From Flavobacteriaceae bacterium (GTDB taxonomy: Bacteria > Bacteroidota > Bacteroidia > Flavobacteriales > Flavobacteriaceae): 64,000 nt of DNA. The notes below the pieces were generated by a model. That model saw only the letters and a list, made by a program, of their open reading frames with translations, was not told the DNA's origin and did not search any database. Below are positions 50,361 through 54,522 of the stretch, one piece after another (position 1 is the stretch's first letter; each line of letters begins with the position of its first letter). Where the stretch lies: NCBI GenBank assembly GCA_018401115.1, contig JAGYKX010000008.1, positions 124,001-188,000 of the forward strand, read 5' to 3'. The position numbers were made by a program, and so were the translations under genes.

Positions 50361-51443
50361 TTAGCCCTTCAAGATTTTCTCTTGGTGGTTAATTGACTCT
50401 TGGTGAATGGCTTTGAACATTTTTAAAACAAACTCTTCACTAAGTCCTTTGGACTCTCCCTCTAAAATCATCTTTCCTAAGATCTCATTCCAACGATTAC
50501 TTTGTAAGACCGCCACATTTTGAGATTTTTTAATTTCTCCAATGGCATCTGCCACTTTCATTCTTTTTGAAAGCGTATCAATAAGTTGGTTGTCAATCAC
50601 ATCTATCTGAGCCCTTAAAGTATTTAACTCCACATTGTAATCTTTTTCAGCAGAAGACTCTTTTCTAATCTTAAGGTCTTTCATGATCTGAACCAAAGTG
50701 GTAGGGGTAACTTGCTGTGCTGCGTCACTCCATGCGTTGTCAGGATCAAAATGTGTCTCAATCATTAGACCGTCAAAATTCAAATCCAAAGCAGTCTGCG
50801 AAACATCAAAAATCATATCGCGCTTCCCTGTAATGTGAGAAGGATCATTAATGATAGGCAAATCTGGAAATTTCTGCTGTAATTCAATAGCAATTTGCCA
50901 TTCTGGAATATTTCTATACTTCGTTTTCTCATAGGTAGAAAATCCTCTATGAATTACGCCTAAATTTTTAATATTGGCGTTGGCTAAACGCTCTACCGCA
51001 CCTAACCATAAGGCTAAATCTGGATTTACTGGGTTTTTCACCAATACAATCTTATCCGTTCCCTCTAGGGCGTCTGCAATTTCTTGGATAATAAATGGGC
51101 TCACTGTGGAACGCGCACCAATCCATAAAAGATCTACATCGTACTCCAAAGCCAATTCTACATGAGCTTTGTTAGCGACCTCTGTGGCCGTTTTTAAACC
51201 CGTTTCTTTTTTTACTTTTTGCAACCACTTTAAACCTAATGCACCAACCCCTTCAAACATTCCTGGCTTAGTACGAGGCTTCCAAATACCTGCTCTAAAA
51301 TAATTTACATCCGTGTCTTTTAACTCATGTGCAATTTTTAATACTTGCTCTTCCGTTTCAGCGCTACAAGGCCCTGCAATCACTAACGGATGGTCTAGCC
51401 CCATGGCATCTAACCAGTTTCTCATTTCTTTTGAATTCTCCAT
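50361..51443 (-). CDS. Bifunctional DAHP synthase / chorismate mutase
   Basis: The 360-residue product joins two steps. The N-terminal domain (about 1-260) is a DAHP synthase of the KDO8P-like type Ibeta group (VIAGPCSAETEEQVL, GIWKPRTKPGMFEGVG, INDPSHITGKRD, MIETHFDPDNAWSDAAQQ). The C-terminal domain (about 275-355) is an AroQ-type all-alpha chorismate mutase (LRAQIDVIDNQLIDTLSKRMKVADAIGEIKK). The mutase may both convert chorismate to prephenate and relay allosteric control to the synthase, as known for other DAHPS-CM fusions. It lies 44 bp after tyrA. Confidence 0.95.
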   Translation of the reverse strand: MENSKEMRNWLDAMGLDHPLVIAGPCSAETEEQVLKIAHELKDTDVNYFRAGIWKPRTKPGMFEGVGALGLKWLQKVKKETGLKTATEVANKAHVELALEYDVDLLWIGARSTVSPFIIQEIADALEGTDKIVLVKNPVNPDLALWLGAVERLANANIKNLGVIHRGFSTYEKTKYRNIPEWQIAIELQQKFPDLPIINDPSHITGKRDMIFDVSQTALDLNFDGLMIETHFDPDNAWSDAAQQVTPTTLVQIMKDLKIRKESSAEKDYNVELNTLRAQIDVIDNQLIDTLSKRMKVADAIGEIKKSQNVAVLQSNRWNEILGKMILEGESKGLSEEFVLKMFKAIHQESINHQEKILKG

Positions 51444-51487: not shown

Positions 51488-52351
51488 CTATTTATTTTGA
51501 GGGGCAAGCCCATTTAAAATATCTTTAATTCTGTTGGTCTGTTCCATTTGAGCGTACAGCCCATTAAAATCATTGGCTTCTACCAAAGATTTAAAATGTT
51601 CTAAATTTTCAATGTACTCTGAAAGTGCAGCCACCACTGCTGTTTTATTATCTTTAAATATGGGTGCCCACATGTCTGGGGAACTCTTTGCCAGACGTAC
51701 CGTACTTTCAAAACCACTGCCTGCCATGTCAAAGATATCTCTTTCATTTTCTTCTTTCTCCATGACTGTCTTTCCCAACATAAAAGCGCTAATATGTGAC
51801 AGATGAGACACATAAGCAATGTGAACATCATGCGCTGCTGCGTTCATATAACGAATACGCATACCCAAGGCTTGAAATACCTCTAAGGCCTTTTCTTGTA
51901 ATTTAAAAGCCGTATGCTCTACTTCACAGATAATCTGTGTCTTTCCTTTAAATAGGCCCGCTATCGCAGCCGATGGCCCTGAAAACTCTGTCCCAGCAAT
52001 AGGATGTGCCGCCAAGTAATTTCTTCTGTTGGGATGGTCTTTAACCGCCTCACATAAGCTGCCCTTTGTGGAACCGGCATCTACTACTACAGTATGTGCA
52101 GAAACATGATCCAATACGAGAGGCAACACTTTTAAAGTGGCGTCTACCGGAATAGCTATAAACACCATATCTGCCGCTGTCACATCTTCTAAACGTCCTA
52201 TCTCATCTATCACACCCAAAGACAAAGCTTCTTTTAAGTAATCTTCATTTTGGTCAATTCCAATTCGTTTCACCTTAGGGTAATACCCCTTGATGTCTTT
52301 AGAAAAAGAACCTCCTATTAAACCAACTCCTATAAAACAAACTACTTTCAT
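51488..52351 (-). CDS. tyrA: Prephenate dehydrogenase
   Basis: The 287-residue product oxidises prephenate to 4-hydroxyphenylpyruvate with NAD(P). GVGLIGGSFSKDIK is the Rossmann loop (about residue 7-20), VDAGSTKGS and HPIAGTEFSGPSAA (about 116-129) are TyrA landmarks with the catalytic His, and HLSHISAFML carries the second conserved His region. No ACT domain is present after the helical domain. It begins 2 bp after the aminotransferase stop. Confidence 0.95.
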   Translation of the reverse strand: MKVVCFIGVGLIGGSFSKDIKGYYPKVKRIGIDQNEDYLKEALSLGVIDEIGRLEDVTAADMVFIAIPVDATLKVLPLVLDHVSAHTVVVDAGSTKGSLCEAVKDHPNRRNYLAAHPIAGTEFSGPSAAIAGLFKGKTQIICEVEHTAFKLQEKALEVFQALGMRIRYMNAAAHDVHIAYVSHLSHISAFMLGKTVMEKEENERDIFDMAGSGFESTVRLAKSSPDMWAPIFKDNKTAVVAALSEYIENLEHFKSLVEANDFNGLYAQMEQTNRIKDILNGLAPQNK

Positions 52352-52353
52352 AC

Positions 52354-53502
52354 CTAATTCTTCACGCGTTCAATAGCTTCTTTTATAATCGTTTTGTCTA
52401 AACAAAGTGAAAAACGAACATATCCCTTACCCCCTGCACCAAAAATGGTTCCAGGTGTAATAAACAAATCTTTTTCGTGCAACAATGCGTCTATAAAAGC
52501 TTCTGCATTTGTTACGCCCTCTGGCAATTTAGCCCACACAAACAAGCCCACGGCATTTGAATCATATGTACAGCCCAATGCGTCTGCCAATTCATAGGTA
52601 AGTTCCCTTCGCTCCTCATATACTTTATTTAGTACTGTATACCAATTGTCAGCTACATCGAGTGCCGCTATGGCTCCCTTTTGTATCGGATAAAACATCC
52701 CTGAATCCATATTACTCTTCACCTTAAGCACTGCATTAATAATTGCTGCATCTCCCAAAACCATTCCTACGCGCCACCCGGCCATATTAAACGTCTTGCT
52801 CAAAGAATTTAACTCCAGTACATAACCCTTTGCACCTGGAATGGATAAGATACTCTGAGGCGCCTTGTTTAAAATAAAACTATAAGGATTGTCATTGACC
52901 AAAAGAATATCGTGCTTTTTGGCAAAGGCTACCAATTCGGTAAGCGCTGCTACAGAAGCCACTGCTCCAGTGGGCATATGAGGGTAAGACAGCCACATGA
53001 GTTTTACCTGAGTAAGGTCTAACTGCTCCAGAGCGGCTATATCTGGCAACCAATTTTTTTCTTTAGATAGCCTATAAGGAATGACCTTAGCGCCAACCAA
53101 ATCAGAAACTGACTGATACGTAGGGTACCCTGGATCTGGAATAAGCACACCATCTCCTGGGTTTAAAAAAGCCATACTAATGTGCATGATCCCTTCTTTT
53201 GAACCCATCAATGGCAAGATCTCAGATGCAGCATCCATAGGAACACCAAACTGTCTTTTATAAAAAGATGCTATCGCTTCTCTGAGCTCAGGCAGTCCCT
53301 GATACGATTGATACTGGTGTGCATTCTCCGCAGACGTGGCAGCTATTAAAGCCTGTGTAACTTTTGAATCTGGCGCCAAGTCTGGACTCCCAATTCCCAT
53401 ATTAATAATAGGTTTTCCCGCTGCCATTAGGCCCCTTACCTCTCTTAACTTTCTAGAGAAGTAATATTCTTGTACCGTATCTAAACGTGTGGCTGTTTTC
53501 AT
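52354..53502 (-). CDS. Class I/II PLP aminotransferase (aromatic amino acid type)
   Basis: The 382-residue product has the fold-type I signs: NMGIGSPDLAPDSKV near the N-terminus, the NDNPYSFI motif with the PLP-pairing Asn/Tyr (about 200) and the PLP Lys in LNSLSKTFNMAGWRVGM (about residue 233). Its place between pheA and tyrA (4-bp ATGA overlap with pheA) suggests transamination of phenylpyruvate and hydroxyphenylpyruvate, or of prephenate. LL-diaminopimelate aminotransferase-like relatives share the sequence, so specificity is inferred from context. Confidence 0.85.
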   Translation of the reverse strand: MKTATRLDTVQEYYFSRKLREVRGLMAAGKPIINMGIGSPDLAPDSKVTQALIAATSAENAHQYQSYQGLPELREAIASFYKRQFGVPMDAASEILPLMGSKEGIMHISMAFLNPGDGVLIPDPGYPTYQSVSDLVGAKVIPYRLSKEKNWLPDIAALEQLDLTQVKLMWLSYPHMPTGAVASVAALTELVAFAKKHDILLVNDNPYSFILNKAPQSILSIPGAKGYVLELNSLSKTFNMAGWRVGMVLGDAAIINAVLKVKSNMDSGMFYPIQKGAIAALDVADNWYTVLNKVYEERRELTYELADALGCTYDSNAVGLFVWAKLPEGVTNAEAFIDALLHEKDLFITPGTIFGAGGKGYVRFSLCLDKTIIKEAIERVKN

Positions 53503-54335
53503 AATTCTCTAGCATTAGTGTATTCTCCTAAGACCCTGAACTCAGCGGCCATAATTTCCAAAATAGCCCTTGCTTTGGCATAGTCTTCATACTGATCAAA
53601 AGTAACGTCTACAAAAAAAGCATACTTCCATGGAAGGTCTATTACTGGTAGTGATTGTATTTTTGTTAAATTTAAGTGGCAGTCACTCATCACATTGAGT
53701 ACTGCAGCCAAGCTCCCTCTTTTATGGTCAAGCACAAAACGAAGCGATGCTTTATTAATATGCTCTTGAGGAATTTCCTTAGAGGTTGTTTTTACAATAA
53801 TAAAACGGGTGGCATTGTTTTTAATGGTCTGTATATCAGAAGCCAATACATCTAGGCCATACAATCCAGCAGCAACTTTAGGCGCTATAGCCGCAATACC
53901 TTTTAGCTGACCAGATTGAATTCGCTGAGCTGTTTCTGCCGTATCTACATCTTCTACTAATTGTATATGCGGGTGTTTTTTAAAAAACTCATGACACTGT
54001 AATAAGGCCATAGGATGAGAATGCACCGCCTTAATATCTTCTATTCCCTGTTCTGGTAAAGCCATAAGATGGTGGTGAATATTCAAGTAGTATTCCCCAA
54101 TAATATGTAAGTGATGGTCATACACCAAAGCATAATTCGGTATAATAGAGCCCGCAATAGAATTTTCAATAGCCATAATACCCTTATCTGCCCTACCATC
54201 TATAAGTTCCTGAACCAAAGCCGGAAAAGACATACAAGGGATCATCTCCTGATCAGACCCATAACAATGTATAGCCACCTGATGGTGGTTAGATCCCTTT
54301 ATGCCTTGAATGGCTATTGTCATTTTTTCTTTCAT
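53499..54335 (-). CDS. pheA: Prephenate dehydratase with ACT domain
   Basis: The 278-residue product converts prephenate to phenylpyruvate. The catalytic domain (about 1-180) shows IAIQGIKGSNHHQVA, GIMAIENSIAGSI and the TRF motif NNATRFIIV (about residue 169-177). The ACT domain (about 196-270) reads GSLAAVLNVMSDCHLNLTKI, then QSLP instead of the classical ESRP Phe-binding motif. No chorismate mutase domain is attached; that function is in the DAHP synthase fusion. It is the first structural gene of the operon, with the FY-rich leader and attenuator directly upstream. Confidence 0.94.
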   Translation of the reverse strand: MKEKMTIAIQGIKGSNHHQVAIHCYGSDQEMIPCMSFPALVQELIDGRADKGIMAIENSIAGSIIPNYALVYDHHLHIIGEYYLNIHHHLMALPEQGIEDIKAVHSHPMALLQCHEFFKKHPHIQLVEDVDTAETAQRIQSGQLKGIAAIAPKVAAGLYGLDVLASDIQTIKNNATRFIIVKTTSKEIPQEHINKASLRFVLDHKRGSLAAVLNVMSDCHLNLTKIQSLPVIDLPWKYAFFVDVTFDQYEDYAKARAILEIMAAEFRVLGEYTNAREL

Positions 54336-54343
54336 TTTTAATC

Positions 54344-54371
54344 AAAAAAAAAAATCCCGCAACAGCGGGAC
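54344..54371 (-). terminator. Attenuator terminator of the pheA leader
   Basis: On the minus strand TCCCGC (54370-54365), a TGTT loop and GCGGGA (54360-54355) form a perfect 6-bp GC stem followed by T11, ending 9 bp before the pheA ATG. Its position between leader peptide and gene marks it as an attenuator, not an operon end. Confidence 0.92.
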
Positions 54372-54435
54372 TCTTAATAAGGTATATCGTTCACAATATC
54401 CTAGAAAAGTCCCATACTTCTATTAAAATAGAAGT
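54367..54435 (-). promoter_or_regulatory. Pause hairpin and antiterminator of the pheA leader
   Basis: ACTTCTATT and AATAGAAGT (54416-54435) make a perfect 9-bp hairpin that overlaps leader codons 14-20. Just after it, GGGACT (54413-54408) can pair with AGTCCC (54372-54367), which is the start of the terminator stem; the helix extends with T-G and T-A pairs. This gives the classical 1:2, 2:3 and 3:4 choices: if a ribosome stalls on the FY codons, 1:2 is blocked, 2:3 forms, and the terminator is lost. Pairings are seen; the dynamics are inferred. Confidence 0.8.
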
Positions 54436-54475
54436 AAAAGTAAAAAAGGTTCCAGAAATTTGTGCTAAGTGTCAT
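54401..54475 (-). CDS. Phe/Tyr attenuator leader peptide
   Basis: A 24-codon ORF (ATG at 54475, TAG at 54403-54401) encodes a peptide with FYFYFYF at residues 11-17, plus Phe7, Trp8 and Phe24. That is six Phe, three Tyr and one Trp in 24 residues. It ends 65 bp before the pheA ATG and overlaps the first arm of the leader hairpin. The peptide needs no own function: its translation senses charged tRNA-Phe and tRNA-Tyr, matching the operon's products. The alternation of Phe and Tyr suggests that either shortage relieves termination. Confidence 0.9.
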   Translation of the reverse strand: MTLSTNFWNLFYFYFYFNRSMGLF

Positions 54476-54493
54476 ATTTTGTCTTACGAAAAG

Positions 54494-54522
54494 CTAATGT
54501 AATTATTATATTTAAAACACAA
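54494..54522 (-). promoter_or_regulatory. Promoter of the pheA leader
   Basis: On the minus strand TTG (54522-54520), an 18-bp spacer and TACATTAG (54501-54494, one mismatch to TAnnTTTG) fit the Bacteroidota pattern. Transcription would start near 54488, about 13 bases before the leader ATG. This places leader, attenuator and structural genes on one transcript. Confidence 0.5.

Follow-up and report, generated by a model that had tools for sequence, protein, structure and literature searches.

Transcription attenuation by translated leader peptides is a classical mechanism. The leader of E. coli pheA encodes a peptide rich in the end product of its pathway, forms 1:2, 2:3 and 3:4 stems and places a terminator before pheA, with Phe alone being read. 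Leaders that read more than one amino acid also exist, for example those of ilvGMEDA and thr, and in the mgtCBR leader of Salmonella the two ORFs answer different signals. Within the Bacteroidetes/Chlorobi, a comparative study from 2004 reportedly predicted attenuators in some members. The locus analysed here resembles the E. coli pheA attenuator (RF01859) in having a leader peptide, three stems and a terminator before pheA, and is unlike it in that its leader alternates Phe and Tyr codons. It would have the working principle in common with the proteobacterial trp, his, leu, thr and ilv attenuators (RF00512, RF00513 and others), from which it differs in the amino acids concerned, in sequence and in phylum.

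The closest reports come from the Bacteroidota themselves. In the transcriptome of Flavobacterium psychrophilum, Guerin et al. (2021; PMC9723704) reported structured 5' elements before pheA and hisG that are found in other Flavobacteriaceae genera and have no Rfam match, along with strong clues that leader-peptide attenuation operates upstream of amino-acid operons. That pheA element concerns the same gene and the same family as the attenuator proposed here; a leader sequence, stems, Phe/Tyr reading, covariation, a wider range and tandem copies are all absent from section 19 of that paper. For Bacteroides thetaiotaomicron, the Merino list as given in Table 7 of Song et al. (2005; PMC1173090) includes a putative attenuator ahead of the pheA operon, where the same operon genes appear as a table entry that names no leader peptide, and short ORFs resembling leader peptides are mentioned for the same species, in general terms, in PMC7366714. 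By term search, the main text of PMC2965389 mentions neither Bacteroidetes, flavobacteria nor pheA; a second terminator in tandem is described in that paper for the rimP leader. A literature search covering few subscription journals and the top of long result lists retrieved neither a Phe/Tyr leader peptide in Bacteroidota nor tandem leader-peptide attenuators before an amino-acid operon. As far as these searches show, the Phe/Tyr version, its class-wide range and its serial doubling have not been described in detail.

The window, that is, the whole stretch of 64,000 nucleotides of Flavobacteriaceae DNA that was analysed, carries on its minus strand an operon for both Phe and Tyr, as originally predicted: Pfam matches identify PheA, an aminotransferase, TyrA and a DAHP synthase/chorismate mutase (Table 1). 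By its gene content, the operon makes the amino acids that its leader would read. The leader ORF is flanked on this strand by metF, which ends upstream, and by pheA, and the 180 bp 5' of pheA contain promoter-like boxes, the 24-codon leader, a terminator and three stems, 1:2, 2:3 and 3:4, that are mutually exclusive.

Table 1. Features of the pheA operon and of the leader region preceding it (window coordinates)
Feature	Coordinates	Strand	Basis
TTG, -33-like promoter box	54520..54522	-	letters; family counts
TACATTAG, -7-like promoter box	54494..54501	-	letters; family versus shuffle counts
Leader peptide ORF (predicted) MTLSTNFWNLFYFYFYFNRSMGLF, 24 codons and TAG	54401..54475	-	ORF and letters; family conservation
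Outer 1:2 stem, 5' arm TTCTGGAA, parts of Phe-Trp-Asn codons	54450..54457	-	MFE fold; 1:2 duplex covaries across family
Regulatory codons F11-Y-F-Y-F-Y-F17	54425..54445	-	leader translation, letters
Inner 9-bp hairpin of 1:2 structure, over Phe/Tyr codons	54415..54436	-	MFE fold and letters
Region 2 GGGACTTTT, antiterminator 5' arm, within leader ORF	54405..54413	-	duplex test, folds, letters
Outer 1:2 stem, 3' arm TTCTAGGA, across stop codon	54399..54406	-	MFE fold and letters
Extra hairpin in antiterminator loop	54380..54402	-	folds of ribosome-free stretch
Region 3 AAGAGTCCCGC, antiterminator 3' arm and terminator 5' arm	54365..54375	-	folds and letters
Region 4, terminator 3' arm and T-run	54344..54360	-	folds, letters, 3:4 pair covariation
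pheA, prephenate dehydratase with ACT-like domain, first gene	53499..54335	-	Pfam PF00800; PF01842 below cut-off
Class I/II aminotransferase	52354..53502	-	Pfam PF00155
tyrA, prephenate dehydrogenase	51488..52351	-	Pfam PF02153, PF20463
DAHP synthase fused to chorismate mutase	50361..51443	-	Pfam PF00793, PF01817

The promoter-like boxes, the leader ORF and the alternating Phe and Tyr codons were all located on the minus strand as the original prediction had placed them. The two promoter-like boxes are separated by 18 nt and form a pair which we take to be similar to the Bacteroidetes promoter consensus; RNA polymerase would probably start some 10-15 nt 5' of the leader ORF. Translation start signals in Bacteroidota differ from those of E. 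coli. The predicted ORF is short and carries a conserved run of product codons, F-Y-F-Y-F-Y-F, at codons 11-17. The 1:2 structure is a double stem, of which the inner part, whose arms TACTTCTAT and ATAGAAGTA pair perfectly over 9 bp, lies over the Phe/Tyr codons as predicted, although it spans 54436-54415 and not 54435-54416. The outer stem had been missed in that prediction: here TTCTAGGA, made up of the last codon of the leader, the stop codon and two further bases, pairs with TTCTGGAA 5' of the Phe/Tyr run. The antiterminator core, GGGACT (54413-54408) with AGTCCC (54372-54367), was already recognised; the full pairing covers 9 bp (GGGACTTTT/AAGAGTCCC), and its loop contains a second hairpin; AAGAGTCCC, the partner of region 2 within region 3, is also part of the terminator 5' arm. 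An intrinsic terminator stands 5' of the first structural gene, with arms at 54375-54365 and 54360-54350 and the predicted run of 11 T at 54354-54344, whose end is 8 nt, and not 9 bp, from pheA (ATG at 54335).

From this arrangement we infer the following course of events. When Phe and Tyr are plentiful, the ribosome would pass FYFYFYF, reach the stop codon and cover region 2; region 3 would then pair with region 4 and transcription would end before pheA. When Phe or Tyr is short, the ribosome would stall in the run and cover region 1, and region 2, left free, would pair with region 3 ahead of the synthesis of region 4, allowing pheA, the aminotransferase gene, tyrA and the DAHP synthase/chorismate mutase gene to be read. 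If no ribosome is present, the 1:2 structure and the terminator would form.

The 165-nt RNA has a minimum free energy of -37.8 kcal/mol, better than all of 200 shuffles (z = -3.98). In equilibrium rather than kinetic folds, with an assumed ribosome footprint masked, region 2 is free for every A-site position from codon 11 to codon 17. In the transcript as it stands before region 4 has been made, a ribosome at F11-F17 leaves the 2:3 antiterminator as the most stable fold (-19.3 to -21.1 kcal/mol), and a ribosome placed at the stop codon masks region 2, whereupon the terminator forms (-16.1 kcal/mol). Once region 4 is included, the terminator is still the best fold for a ribosome stalled anywhere from F11 to F17 (-21.8 to -23.7 kcal/mol), and in the naked RNA the fold in which 2:3 is enforced reaches -33.3 kcal/mol versus -36.3 kcal/mol for the terminator form, that is, 3 kcal/mol worse. 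Equilibrium folds, with masked ribosome or of naked RNA, do not by themselves yield switching; since the terminator wins even with a stalled ribosome, antitermination would have to rest on 2:3 forming first.

Conservation was followed across the family of the window. Of its 199 genomes, 178 had a PheA, and 148 pheA upstream regions were analysed, two genomes with the match at a contig start and 28 others being left out. A leader was defined as an ATG ORF of 10-50 codons with at least six, or in a relaxed version at least five, Phe/Tyr among nine consecutive residues. At six, 144 of the 148 regions hold a leader, versus 1/148 on the antisense strand and 7/740 in shuffled sequences; at five the count is 147/148. 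A leader at five with a terminator behind it is present in 146 regions (139 under a stricter terminator rule). In one genome (G013) the leader reaches 5/9 and its unit ends 523 nt 5' of the pheA match, outside the region taken, which is why 147 regions have a leader though 146 are counted as backed by a terminator. The sole pheA without a leader (in G023) also lacks the aminotransferase, tyrA and DAHP synthase genes alongside. The alignment of pheA upstream regions proposed as a check of the original prediction therefore yields a Phe/Tyr-rich ORF in nearly every case together with covarying 1:2, 2:3 and 3:4 stems, and a failure of conservation even among close relatives was not encountered.

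The content of the leaders is also constant in kind. Each of the 146 terminator-backed leaders has at least two Phe and at least one Tyr, with means of 5.2 Phe and 3.6 Tyr, and in the 23 aligned leaders of group A codons 10, 12 and 14 are Phe throughout, with silent variation at codons 10 and 12. A Trp codon is present in 92 of the 146; that of the window lies within the outer 1:2 stem (54450-54457), where a stall could also free region 2, and Trp shortage might act as well. A TAnnTT[TA]G box is found within 60 nt 5' of the leader ATG in 139/146 family regions versus 314/2920 shuffles, and TTG lies 15-26 nt 5' of the -7-like box in 98/146. The distance from leader start to pheA match is mostly 120-245 nt; in three loci (L055, L061, L302) it is about 460, 375 and 655 nt. 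A covariance model (R1), which retained the terminator alone as structure, found at least 38 of 60 relatives and at least 48 of 196 genomes of the order, counts that are lower bounds because the model leans on family sequence and the filters were strict. Weak R1 matches beside fumarase-like genes in two genomes (G000, G208), as well as those at L292 and L294-L296, which have no Phe/Tyr ORF, were taken as chance.

All three stems change in a coordinated manner. Region 3 occurs as GTCTCG (81 regions), GTCCCG (36), GTCCTG (16), GTTCCG (4) and other versions, and region 2 changes in step. Pair counting for 2:3 on a MAFFT alignment (A1) was dropped, region 2 being off by one column between leader groups, and a permutation test was used for that reason, which selects the strongest duplex whether the pairing is own or permuted. 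The duplex of a region with its own region 3 is strong in 141 of 146 family regions and weak in five, and shuffled region 2 attains a strong duplex in 105/730. Under permutations that ignore kinship among genomes, the mean 2:3 score is 16.93 for own pairings versus 14.04 with the region 3 of other genomes (sd 0.24; maximum of 300 permutations 14.69). Likewise with kinship ignored, the 1:2 duplex has a mean of -10.22 versus -6.92 kcal/mol when permuted, in the 132 usable regions that remain after 14 with too short a region-2 flank were left out, and it beats all 200 permutations within each of three leader groups. In the 3:4 stem, 99.5% of cells remain paired and 34 cells among 62 sequences show double changes; none of 500 shuffles scores as high. 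The mutual exclusivity of the three pairings is thus borne out by folds and covariation alike. As relatives retain the leader ORF with its Phe/Tyr codons, and with it the terminator and three covarying stems, the attenuator interpretation is supported, and the locus would be a classical ribosome-mediated transcription attenuator sensing the supply of charged Phe-tRNA and Tyr-tRNA, a reading to which, from sequence and folding models, we assign a probability of about 0.88.

Within this reading, it is likely from the codon content that both Phe and Tyr are sensed. It has to be considered that Phe codons alone might count, Tyr being tolerated as TAY suits the RNA stems and the T-rich stretch. In this regard, Phe is invariant at three positions of the run in group A, where Tyr positions are at times Phe, pheA is the first gene and makes Phe, and two genomes (G007, G092) retain Tyr-rich leaders though no TyrA is detectable. 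The presence of Tyr in every one of the 146 family leaders weighs against such a scheme, as does the genome G231, in which protein and PDH_C profile searches of an 83% complete assembly found no TyrA, and whose operon without tyrA is preceded by tandem leaders (L293/L388) with seven Phe and no Tyr in each. In six genomes with no detectable TyrA, the leaders also contain less Tyr than do 142 family leaders accompanied by TyrA (p = 0.03, one-sided, per genome, kinship ignored), a comparison based on TyrA calls for 161 genomes in which absence comes mostly from one query, the profile having been added for G231 only, and which leaves out one locus (L127, on a 3.6 kb contig of the 77% complete G170). 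Tracking of tyrA presence by the Tyr codons is therein suggestive only, and a leader reading Phe alone is, on balance, unlikely. The PheA frame of G231 has about 200 residues and no ACT domain match; the sole other genome of its family has no match to this PheA nor to the PDH_C profile.

A different possibility is that the product acts as an arrest peptide, with free Phe or Tyr, and not starvation, causing the ribosome to stall, as Trp does with TnaC. Peptide conservation does reach past the run, as in the YFWN that precedes it in group A; this conservation is explained at least partly by the 1:2 stem, as the codons before the run pair and covary with the surroundings of the stop codon, and the peptides vary widely between groups while the kind of codon stays constant, which makes peptide arrest very improbable. 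Still harder to sustain is a protein- or metabolite-binding switch, such as a riboswitch or T-box, to which the ORF would be incidental. Such a switch would share the terminator and antiterminator that exist here; no Rfam family, T-box included, reaches its gathering score in the window (the best sub-threshold score is that of Leu_leader, RF00512, 26.6 versus 50, and Phe_leader, RF01859, has 15.6 versus 55), and the Phe/Tyr-rich ORF is nearly universal in the family. Finally, an ordinary metF terminator with a chance ORF, conceivable given that metF ends upstream on the same strand, can be set aside, as leader and terminator accompany pheA in 146 of the 148 family regions and, in the few regions inspected, the upstream gene varies, at times lying on the other strand.

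The Phe/Tyr leader extends beyond the Flavobacteriaceae. In a draw of 198 genomes from the class, 52 had a PheA match and 49 upstream regions were analysed, the genome of the window (a repeat) and two others (G255, G212) being left out; of the 44 regions outside the family, 26 have a leader at 6/9 and 18 have none, and in two of the latter (L169, L170) an EPSP synthase-like frame, recognised by eye, ends close to pheA. A scan of named genomes was led by a Hymenobacter-type PheA alignment, and its best 80 loci, with Hymenobacter and Chitinophaga foremost, were kept. Among these best 80, a leader at 6/9 is present in 79, L350 being the only exception, with none on the antisense strand, and in 69 a terminator by rule stands behind at least one leader. 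The full order pheA, aminotransferase, tyrA, DAHP synthase/chorismate mutase is kept in 64 of the 80 and tyrA is seen in 78, the remaining two being short loci.

Several of these lineages have two Phe/Tyr leaders in series. This is the case for 16 of the 80 named loci, nine of the ten Hymenobacter (H. polaris has a single leader) and all seven Chitinophaga, with 81-99 nt from the first stop codon to the second ATG; both terminators satisfy the rule in three of the 16 and one does in 13. A promoter-like box precedes the first leader in 10/16 and lies between the units in 1/16, which fits a single transcript running through two gates. Among 30 loci of family f64, 12 also have two leader ORFs at 5/9 (10 at 6/9), as do 11 of 20 in family f77 (10 at 6/9), and in 14 of these 50 loci both units are complete, each with its own terminator under the strict rule; the f64 set partly coincides with the Hymenobacter set, L213 and L313 having the same leaders. 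Two leaders each were also found at L212 (family f52) and L293 (f13), whereas no Flavobacteriaceae pheA region has two terminator-backed units. It seems rather probable that the dual Phe/Tyr attenuator is ancestral for the pheA operon in Bacteroidia and was doubled into series in several lineages (Hymenobacter, Chitinophaga and two to three further families), which would confront the polymerase with two Phe/Tyr-sensitive gates. Two short ORFs in one leader region of one operon are a likeness to the tandem attenuators of Salmonella mgtCBR, as described in PMC3641672; unlike mgtCBR, both tandem pheA units are Phe/Tyr-rich.

The genome of the window holds a second Phe/Tyr leader, MNRFTTEYFYFFYFFEKAK, with a terminator, on another contig (C5, about 1158043-1157922, minus strand), where it sits between an ACT-less prephenate dehydratase and a second DAHP synthase/chorismate mutase, the latter followed by a 3-dehydroquinate synthase and an EPSP synthase. 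A model search found no such second copy in the 11 other members of the genus, so that it may derive from transfer or contamination.

Taken together, these observations provide a comparative case for the use of coupled transcription and translation in classical attenuation by Bacteroidota, and predict that one leader would sense two amino acids at once. In most regions looked at here, the leaders also flag a putative small peptide gene 5' of pheA. Where the units are doubled in series, they would constitute a natural test of what is gained from a second attenuator, be it a lower leak or a sharper response.
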